DNA of 64,000 nucleotides, taken from Salibacter halophilus (GTDB lineage: Bacteria; Bacteroidota; Bacteroidia; Flavobacteriales_G; Salibacteraceae). The stretch spans positions 1 to 64,000 of the forward strand of contig NZ_WACR01000005.1 of the NCBI RefSeq assembly GCF_008806325.1, given 5' to 3'. The position numbers and the translations under genes were made by a program. Shown here one piece after another: positions 9,048 through 11,424 of the stretch. Each line of letters begins with the position of its first letter. Position 1 is the first letter of the stretch. The notes under the pieces were generated by a model. It did no database searches. It was not told the DNA's origin and worked only from the letters and a program-made list of their open reading frames with translations.

Positions 9048-9055
9048 CAAAAGTA
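9048..9055 (-). promoter_or_regulatory. Probable -7 box of the fabI promoter
   Basis: On the minus strand TACTTTTG matches TAnnTTTG and ends 23 nt before the fabI start. No convincing TTG -33 element was found at the right distance, so the call is tentative. Confidence 0.4.
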
Positions 9056-9156
9056 AGGATTTACCGCTTTTGAGTTAGTCCGTGAATTGAACGTTTTTGA
9101 ACATCGCTGGCAAACAGTTCAAAATTTTGTTACTTTCGGTACGTAAGCCACGCACA

Positions 9157-9492
9157 ATGCAAAAAACCTTCATCCTCTTCCTCTTTATTGTATCGGCTGT
9201 TACGGTCAGATCCCAAAAGGTTTTCTCAGTCGAGTACGCTCATCAGGCCGATGTGAAAGTCTTCGTAGCTGATTACGAGCACCAGGCAGACTTAAGCGTT
9301 TTCAAGGTAGATTACGGCCATCAGGCAGACGGCAACGAGGGAAAGTGGTTTTTCGTGGAGTACGCACATCAGGCCGATAAAAAGATCTATTTCGTTGATT
9401 ACCAGCACCAGGCCGATATCACTATTTATTTTGTAGAGCACCGCCACCAGAGCGGCTGGAATGATAAATCGAAGAAACACTTATTTTATTGA
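9157..9492 (+). CDS. Secreted HQAD-repeat protein (septoil-knot, DUF6150 type)
   Basis: 111-aa protein with a signal peptide (MQKTFILFLFIVSAVTVRSQ) followed by six consecutive repeats of 12-15 residues, each ending [VA]-[ED]-[YH]-x-H-Q-[AS]-[DG]: VEYAHQAD, ADYEHQAD, VDYGHQAD, VEYAHQAD, VDYQHQAD and VEHRHQSG. The pattern, with a Trp-containing break after the third repeat (EGKWFF) and a terminal SGWND, matches the small beta proteins annotated as 7(1) septoil-knot domains. Their function is unknown. The ATG at 9157 was chosen because it starts the signal peptide. The dispersed word overlaps the cleavage site (9204). The next gene begins 3 nt after the stop. Confidence 0.8.
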   Translation: MQKTFILFLFIVSAVTVRSQKVFSVEYAHQADVKVFVADYEHQADLSVFKVDYGHQADGNEGKWFFVEYAHQADKKIYFVDYQHQADITIYFVEHRHQSGWNDKSKKHLFY

Positions 9493-9495
9493 GAT

Positions 9496-11424
9496 ATGAA
9501 AATCAAACAACTGTTAACTCTTTTAGTAATCTTTATTTCACTCAACTCATTTTCAGAAAATGATACTCTAACTCTTAATGATTTATCAATTGAAGAGGTT
9601 ACAGTCTTCAAGAGAGGAGTTGAAATTAAACGTGTGGGAAAAGTTGAAATCCCAGAAGGTAGAAATGTATTGATATTCCCCAGGCTAGAGAGTTCTGTTG
9701 AATCGAATAGTATCAGAGTCAAAATCGATAATGTAGAGATTCTTTCTATTCAGGAGATTCTCAATTATGACATATCTGAAGTGAAAGACGAGATTAAAAA
9801 TATAGATGACACAATTGATGGGTTACTTAAAGATCTCAAATCACTGCAGTCAGAAGAGAGCATTTTAAAAACTCAAAAACAGCTTCTCTACAATTCAACA
9901 TCTAAGAAAGATGTCGATATTGGTAATAATGAAATTCAGGCAAGACTTACTCTTCTTAAAAAAGAACTTTCATCAATAAACAAAGAGTTATTTTCTAATG
10001 GAGAAAAACAAGAATCAATTGCCAAAGAGATAAGGACCCTAAATTTAAAAAGAGAGAGAATCACATCTCAAATTGAAAAAAACACAAATGCGATCTCAAT
10101 TGAAATAATGAGTTCTAATAAAGAGAGAAAAAACATAGAACTCAAATACTTTTCCAGAGATGCTGGTTGGAATTCAAAATATGATTTAAAAGTCAGGGAT
10201 ATAGAACAACCAACTATTTTAGAAAAATGGGTTGACATTAGACAAAACACTGGTAGAAACTGGGAAAATATAAGCATTAATATCTCATCATATCATCCAA
10301 CAACAGACCTTAAAAGTACAAGTTTGGAAAAATACTATATCGATGAAATGAAACCAGACTTACAAAGTAATGAGCCGGGCGAAATACGAGGAAAAGTAAT
10401 TGATTCAGAAACATTAGAACCAGTACCCTTTGCTAATATTATCATTAAACAAAAGGGAGTTCAAGTTAGCGGCACATCTTCTGATTTTGATGGGAACTTT
10501 TCTTTGAGAGACTTAAAGTCTGAAAGATACACTTTAGAAGCAACTTTCGTTGGCTATAAACCATTGAGAAAAGAGATTGTCGTAGTTCCAGAAGAAGTGT
10601 CGAATATTGTAATCAAGCTTGATCAAAATCTTGAAAGTCTAAAGGAATTTGAAGTTGTAGACTACAAAGTACCGCTAATAGAGAAGGATAATACATCGAG
10701 TGGAAATACATTTACAAACGATAGGTACAAACCAAAAACCAGAAAATCTTCAGAACCTCAAAATAAAAAGGCAATGACTGTTGCTGGTGTTACTATCAAT
10801 TCTAAAAAGTTGTTAAATAGCAGCAATAAATCTTTTTCAAAACTTCCTAAAAAATACTCAATTAAAAGCTCAAGTAGTAAGAAACTTAATATTGAAAAAG
10901 ACACTGTAAATTCAGATTTTAAACTCACAGGAATCCCTAAAAACAACTCAAATGCATTTGTAACAGCAACAATCCCTAATTGGCAGGAATATGGAGTTCC
11001 GCCAAATAGTGTCATCAATATTTTTTATCAAAATGAATTTAATGGTGTATTGAAGCTAGATAAATCATCAAAGACTAATGATACTCTGGATTTAGCTGTT
11101 GGCATTGCAAAGCAGATAATACTTGATAGAGATGTGAAAATTAAAAATGATAGAAAGGGAATTAGGCAAAACAAAAGACAGACGACAGAAGACATCACCC
11201 TCACAGTTAAAAACACGAGCAAATCACCAGTAATAGTCGATTTAAAAGATCAATATCCTCTTGCCAAAAATGAAGAGATTGAAATTGAACTGGTTGAATC
11301 AGGAAATGCTGATGTCGATAAAGATAAAGGAATACTATCATGGGAGGTGACTCTTCAACCGAACGAAACAAAAGAATACAATTTCAAATATACTGTCGAG
11401 TATCCTCCTAATTACAGCTATTAA
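9496..11424 (+). CDS. DUF4139 (MuiA-like) protein with inserted carboxypeptidase-regulatory-like domain
   Basis: 642-aa secreted protein with a signal peptide (about 1-20). The N-terminal domain (about 25-130) resembles DUF4140. It is followed by a long coiled-coil (about 90-205) and the DUF4139 beta region (RDAGWNSKYDLKVRD onward). A beta-sandwich of the CarboxypepD_reg-like type (EIRGKVIDSETLEPVPFANI, about 296-375) is inserted in the middle of DUF4139, before its C-terminal half. Related proteins are named mucoidy inhibitor A; their activity is unknown. The gene is visibly AT-richer than its neighbours and has no copy of the dispersed word over 1.9 kb, suggesting later acquisition. It is co-oriented with thpR. 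Confidence 0.8.
   Translation: MKIKQLLTLLVIFISLNSFSENDTLTLNDLSIEEVTVFKRGVEIKRVGKVEIPEGRNVLIFPRLESSVESNSIRVKIDNVEILSIQEILNYDISEVKDEIKNIDDTIDGLLKDLKSLQSEESILKTQKQLLYNSTSKKDVDIGNNEIQARLTLLKKELSSINKELFSNGEKQESIAKEIRTLNLKRERITSQIEKNTNAISIEIMSSNKERKNIELKYFSRDAGWNSKYDLKVRDIEQPTILEKWVDIRQNTGRNWENISINISSYHPTTDLKSTSLEKYYIDEMKPDLQSNEPGEIRGKVIDSETLEPVPFANIIIKQKGVQVSGTSSDFDGNFSLRDLKSERYTLEATFVGYKPLRKEIVVVPEEVSNIVIKLDQNLESLKEFEVVDYKVPLIEKDNTSSGNTFTNDRYKPKTRKSSEPQNKKAMTVAGVTINSKKLLNSSNKSFSKLPKKYSIKSSSSKKLNIEKDTVNSDFKLTGIPKNNSNAFVTATIPNWQEYGVPPNSVINIFYQNEFNGVLKLDKSSKTNDTLDLAVGIAKQIILDRDVKIKNDRKGIRQNKRQTTEDITLTVKNTSKSPVIVDLKDQYPLAKNEEIEIELVESGNADVDKDKGILSWEVTLQPNETKEYNFKYTVEYPPNYSY

Follow-up and report, generated by a model that had tools for sequence, protein, structure and literature searches.

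Apparent whole-set exchange of a motif residue in the six repeats of the small exported DUF6150 proteins

The window analysed here, the whole stretch of 64,000 nucleotides from Salibacter halophilus, encodes an ordinary member of DUF6150, a known bacterial family of small secreted proteins, and our main finding is that this family exchanges a key residue in all six copies of its repeat together. We lean, by a little, towards reading the motif position as a six-fold 'setting' in a knot-like family, in which selection at the level of the protein moves all six copies in step (between Ser, Asn, His and Tyr, with the adjoining Gln going to Lys, Glu or Arg), while the DNA shows no homogenisation and the remaining positions of each repeat evolve on their own. 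The usual fate of tandem repeats is either homogenisation at the DNA level or divergence. It is uncommon for six dispersed residues to switch in this nearly all-or-none manner, and this is the part of our results most worth the attention of specialists.

The gene is an intact reading frame on the forward strand (ATG at 9157 to TGA at 9492) for a protein of 111 aa, and it is present once in the 3.1 Mb genome (Table 1). Reading the sequence by itself had suggested DUF6150, and the profile search agrees, since the single Pfam family matched is PF19647 (88.7 bits against a cut-off of 27; E 2.5e-25), with protein residues 14-109 covering positions 3-97 of the 98 in the profile. DUF6150 is a family without a stated function. 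All 35 aligned members score as DUF6150 in Pfam, and the six units of the window protein align with those of its 34 relatives as repeated strands with Y-x-x-Q-A-D turns. NCBIfam and padloc gave no match, PHROGs gave only a weak one (phrog_6462, E 0.0027), a viral structure library held no convincing match, and no phage, plasmid or viral-contig relatives were found. Cleavage of the predicted signal peptide would leave a mature protein starting with QKVF; a Q-K-[VI] start lines up across the relatives, with a hydrophobic stretch before each. Nearly all of the roughly 92 mature residues fall into six strand-turn units. The description of a secreted, compact, six-repeat protein was upheld by the putative signal peptide, the six units and a confident single-domain model.

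The motifs lie at protein residues 29, 42, 55, 71, 84 and 97, that is, at a spacing of 13 aa which widens to 16 aa only from unit 3 to unit 4. The Trp of the segment in this longer interval (mature W45) is invariant in 35 of 35 aligned sequences. Of the six HQAD motifs claimed by the sequence-only reading, those of units 1-5 stand and that of unit 6 is HQSG. When the mature sequence was shuffled 200,000 times, two or more HQAD turned up in only two of the shuffles, compared with five in the real protein, and no further HQAD was found when all six frames of the window were scanned. The repeats are also visible in the DNA, as had been noted, but loosely, because a repeat finder recovered only three copies of 39 nt with 72-74% identity; the six His codons read, in order, CAT, CAC, CAT, CAT, CAC, CAC.

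Table 1. Features of the DUF6150 gene and its surroundings, in window coordinates
Feature	Position	Strand	Basis
TAnnTTTG-like element TACTTTTG, upstream of fabI	9048-9055	-	read from sequence
TAnnTTTG-like element TACTTTCG, 7/8 to consensus, upstream of DUF6150 gene	9131..9138	+	read from sequence
DUF6150 gene	9157..9492	+	intact ORF; PF19647 at residues 14-109; sole copy in genome
Predicted Sec signal peptide MQKTFILFLFIVSAVTVRS, without lipobox Cys	9157..9213	+	read from sequence
Motif 1, HQAD (in VEYAHQAD)	9241..9252	+	unit alignment
Motif 2, HQAD (in ADYEHQAD)	9280..9291	+	unit alignment
Motif 3, HQAD (in VDYGHQAD)	9319..9330	+	unit alignment
GNEGKW segment between units 3 and 4, lengthening the interval to 16 aa	9331..9348	+	alignment
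Motif 4, HQAD (in VEYAHQAD)	9367..9378	+	unit alignment
Motif 5, HQAD (in VDYQHQAD)	9406..9417	+	unit alignment
Motif 6, degenerate HQSG (in VEHRHQSGW)	9445..9456	+	unit alignment
C-terminal helix, mature residues 85-91	9466..9486	+	DSSP on AlphaFold2 model
DUF4140/DUF4139 protein with carboxypeptidase-regulatory-like insert	9496..11424	+	Pfam

Alignment of the six units in 40 well-aligned members showed that whole proteins can be typed by their motif as SQAD, NQAD, NQSD, HQAD, YQAD, DYKAD, SRAD or SEAD, and one genus alone (g10) holds DYKAD, NQAD and NQSD. Judged from these sequences, uniformity within a protein is a strong tendency with mixed exceptions (L081, L034, L036 and L024). The residue at the His position is S, N, Y, H, T, F or G, Ser being commonest, followed by Asn and Tyr. 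His fills all six motifs in two of the 40 members, the window protein and L004, and occurs in one motif of a third, mixed member. The near-invariance of HQAD is therefore real inside the window protein and lost in its relatives, where His is mostly replaced by Ser or Asn. This bears on the proposed ring of His or Asp side chains, which finds no support as a family feature. That the function of the protein is to bind a metal or ligand through a ring built by the His (and Asp) of its six motifs appears very unlikely. The window protein and L004 do carry all six His, and no residue is more frequent than Asp in the +3 column, where most units keep it. But the 40 members retain the same architecture with mostly Ser, then Asn and Tyr, at the position, and the Asp often gives way to Gly, Lys or Asn in unit 3 and nearly always to another residue, mostly Gly, in unit 6, although ligands would be expected to persist at a conserved metal site. 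Since His is not conserved in the family, the chief reason to propose a conserved metal ring falls away; a metal site peculiar to the His-type lineage is possible.

Several other loci show variant forms of the gene. The second DUF6150 gene of genome G027 (L021:1498-1797, reverse strand) has five units, one having apparently been lost in frame. Broken copies were found in Kaistella soli (L006:5971-6314, a frameshift and a stop) and in genome G444 (L030:1498-1863, one stop); in both, the Gln codon of motif 4 has become a stop. A protein of 239 aa without signal peptide (L019:985-1701, reverse strand) carries five N-terminal YEAD-type units followed by a Ser-rich linker, a membrane segment and an apparent bacterial SH3 domain, and genome G207 has two divergent DUF6150 genes with degenerate motifs in tandem (L039:699-1794, forward strand). 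A cysteine-containing branch with FAD-type motifs (x-x-F-A-D; L040, L041 and L042, family f28) is probably a separate subfamily.

The exchange of the motif as a set is seen when units are compared within and between proteins. At the His position, units of the same protein agree with an identity of 0.87, against 0.35 for one unit compared across proteins (n=29 non-redundant), and the value of 0.87 was reached by 0 of 2000 column shuffles, tests of uniformity that only partly remove relatedness. The adjoining Gln position behaves likewise (0.91 within a protein versus 0.66 for one unit across proteins), while several strand positions show the reverse, with 0.17-0.33 within a protein and 0.61-0.85 for one unit across proteins. 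Because strand positions are repeat-specific and the motif is uniform, the units retain their old separate identities despite the uniform motif. Among 95 pairs of proteins at least 70% identical outside the motif, which are not independent of each other, 27 differed at none of the six motif positions, 10 at one, 5 at two, 3 at three, 2 at four, 13 at five and 35 at all six. Thus 37 of the 95 pairs differ at 0-1 positions, 48 at 5-6 and 10 in between, whereas a binomial expectation would place 29 pairs at three differences and 26 at four, instead of the 3 and 2 observed. On a tree from 56 non-motif columns, which is poorly resolved with many open forks, the motif type requires a minimum of 13 changes. 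Examples of such switches are L011, with NQ at all six units, which is joined with L024, with SQ at four (support 99/88), and L085 with L003. Coupling between particular pairs of repeats (for example, i with i+3) was flat over all distances and carried no topological information.

Uniform repeats could also arise in the DNA itself, by recent copying or gene conversion in each lineage, with no need for selection on a uniform ring. The repeats are visible in the DNA and a recent duplication would yield uniformity, but we hold this origin to be unlikely, as four observations oppose it. Synonymous motif codons match no more than expected, with an agreement of 0.53 against the 0.51 predicted by the gene's own usage; TCN and AGY serines are mixed between the units of single genes in 10 of 21 Ser-type genes; the repeat-specific strand residues are common to proteins with different motifs; and agreement is equally strong for distant and adjacent units. 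A variant with ancient copying tracts limited to the motif itself is conceivable. One base per unit suffices for many of the exchanges (Ser AGY to Asn AAY, or Asn, His and Tyr among each other), so that parallel point changes would be enough. Given the lack of homogenisation at synonymous codons and the repeat-specific strand residues, selection on the protein rather than copying of DNA best explains the uniformity, as far as can be read from the genes.

We see an even chance that the best explanation as a whole is correct, namely that a small exported DUF6150 protein forms a ladder-like, stable scaffold with its six uniform turns in one ring or stack. The putative signal peptide would lead to export, and the six units, each a strand plus a short helical turn, are predicted to build a compact single domain. 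The chain may wind more than once round one axis, as in the knotted protein Q9PR55; in designed torus-knot repeat proteins the chain likewise winds repeatedly about one axis (PMC10598012). Winding of this kind would make the six turns (Y-x-[S/N/H/Y]-[Q/K/E/R]-A-D) meet as one ring or stack, where the side chains of the variable position could touch their equivalents in other units or one shared symmetric partner. If side chains contact each other or a symmetric partner, the six have to match in kind. The motif residues would then be kept uniform by selection and could change only as a set, with mixed sets disfavoured. The motif would serve mainly as the architectural ladder of a very stable scaffold, in the cell envelope or beyond it, rather than as a catalytic or metal site conserved in the family. 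Export of a very stable scaffold is the proposal that assumes least, and for the window protein the most likely role is that of such a scaffold with its six turns arranged in one uniform ring.

DUF6150 is distributed patchily: in a sample of 392 genomes across the phylum 22 carry it, as do 11 of 35 genomes of the same taxonomic family; it is absent from two other genomes of the genus examined. One of these congeners (G002) has fabI and a methyltransferase gene in synteny with the window and a different gene beyond fabI. This pattern is what would be expected if the motif were a recognition surface for an outside partner (a host, phage, sugar polymer or competitor), its type switching under diversifying selection while the gene comes and goes, and the gene-lacking congener that keeps the fabI-methyltransferase flank, the several motif types within g10 and the two broken copies fit as well. 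However, the genes have no recurrent neighbour, and thus no conserved partner gene, in 38 neighbourhoods (up to ~8 kb per side) apart from plain synteny within one genus, and the searches for phage, plasmid and viral-contig relatives and for a match in padloc found none. Moreover, switching of all six sites together is atypical of arms races at a surface, where mixtures are expected. Recognition of this kind seems rather improbable to us, though its chance is not negligible.

In the window, the DUF4139 gene begins 3 nt downstream of the DUF6150 gene and is perhaps co-transcribed with it, a pairing that is not conserved in the 38 neighbourhoods. The -7 element of Bacteroidota has the consensus TAnnTTTG. 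By its similarity to this consensus TACTTTCG is a possible candidate for the DUF6150 gene's own promoter, and the divergent arrangement of TACTTTCG and TACTTTTG suggests separate promoters for this gene and fabI.

The structure of the mature window protein was predicted with AlphaFold2 from an alignment with the 34 relatives. The model is a compact single domain (pLDDT 96.4, pTM 0.85) and shows the six-fold repeats, with six strands that each lead into a helical turn of three residues at the motif, and with a helix at the C terminus. A 7_1 knot had been proposed from the motif pattern, and in a Foldseek comparison with 350,542 PDB chains the nearest solved structures were indeed those of 7_1-knotted Q9PR55, four chains of which (8iwa, 8iwb, 8jrm) rank 1-4. 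These matches are weak (E 0.012-0.074, best probability 0.84, the next match having E 0.73), with TM 0.33-0.38, an rmsd of about 10 A and ~18% identity in the structural alignment. Among the matches that follow, with E about 1, SPOUT methyltransferases predominate, a group of trefoil-knotted enzymes. When the divergent member L035 was modelled as well, the same four Q9PR55 chains came out on top. Sequence searches of the PDB found no relatives up to E 10 with the 35-member profile or four single relatives, where compositional filters may hide repeats, and no match to the window protein itself to E 1.

The modelled domain might instead be an open, unknotted beta-repeat, its likeness to Q9PR55 being local strand-turn geometry only. 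Both models superpose on Q9PR55 with TM 0.30-0.38 and an rmsd of about 10 A over 73-76 aligned columns, and AlphaFold is known to ignore topological barriers (PMC10672856), so that this reading deserves a serious hearing although we doubt it. The only clear structural neighbours among the 350,542 chains are entries with a 7_1 knot, followed far behind by mostly SPOUT methyltransferases, and a compact, confidently predicted domain of 92 residues with six short strands would be hard to square with a simple open solenoid. On the strength of the models, a knot in the window protein is plausible and the link to the Q9PR55 knot is a good lead, although with so low a superposition the overall course of the chain may depart from that of Q9PR55 and may not form a 7_1 knot.

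If the six-fold setting is true, the six turns form a closed ring that acts as a unit, and natural sequence variation could probe the symmetry of a knotted fold. The 7_1 knot of the Q9PR55 type is the most complex protein knot known. A ring of six turns would offer a natural panel of variants (Ser, Asn, His, Tyr, Lys, Glu and Arg types, together with the in-frame five-unit copy L021) useful for studying the folding of the most complex protein knots, and would point to the surface where function should be sought. The five-unit copy is, in addition, a natural test of whether the knot type drops by one winding.

With the rest of DUF6150 (PF19647) the window protein shares the six-unit architecture, the Trp segment between units 3 and 4 and the C-terminal tail, but it differs in having His as motif residue in place of the commoner Ser or Asn, and in its degenerate unit 6. 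Among knotted proteins, the 3_1 Knotted Solenoid fold is likewise a repeat-built beta protein of bacteria, but the unknotted proteins closest to it are pentapeptide-repeat beta-solenoids, and the fold is reported only from a specific bacterial group (PMC13123833); no entry of this fold was recognised among the 50 structural matches listed. Q9PR55 of Ureaplasma (PDB 8IWA, 8IWB, 8JRM), whose 7_1 knot was predicted (PMC9278004) and then confirmed by crystallography (PMC13352647, PMC11223836), resembles the window protein in its shortness (89 aa) and its repeated strand-turn secondary structure, but differs in the low global superposition with our model and in having no sequence-profile link. P73136, a probable homologue of Q9PR55 with a predicted 5_1 knot (PMC9278004), is likened here by description only and has nearly the length of the window protein (112 versus 111 aa). 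Knot type can differ between homologues (PMC9278004), and if the window protein is knotted, its type could be 5_1.
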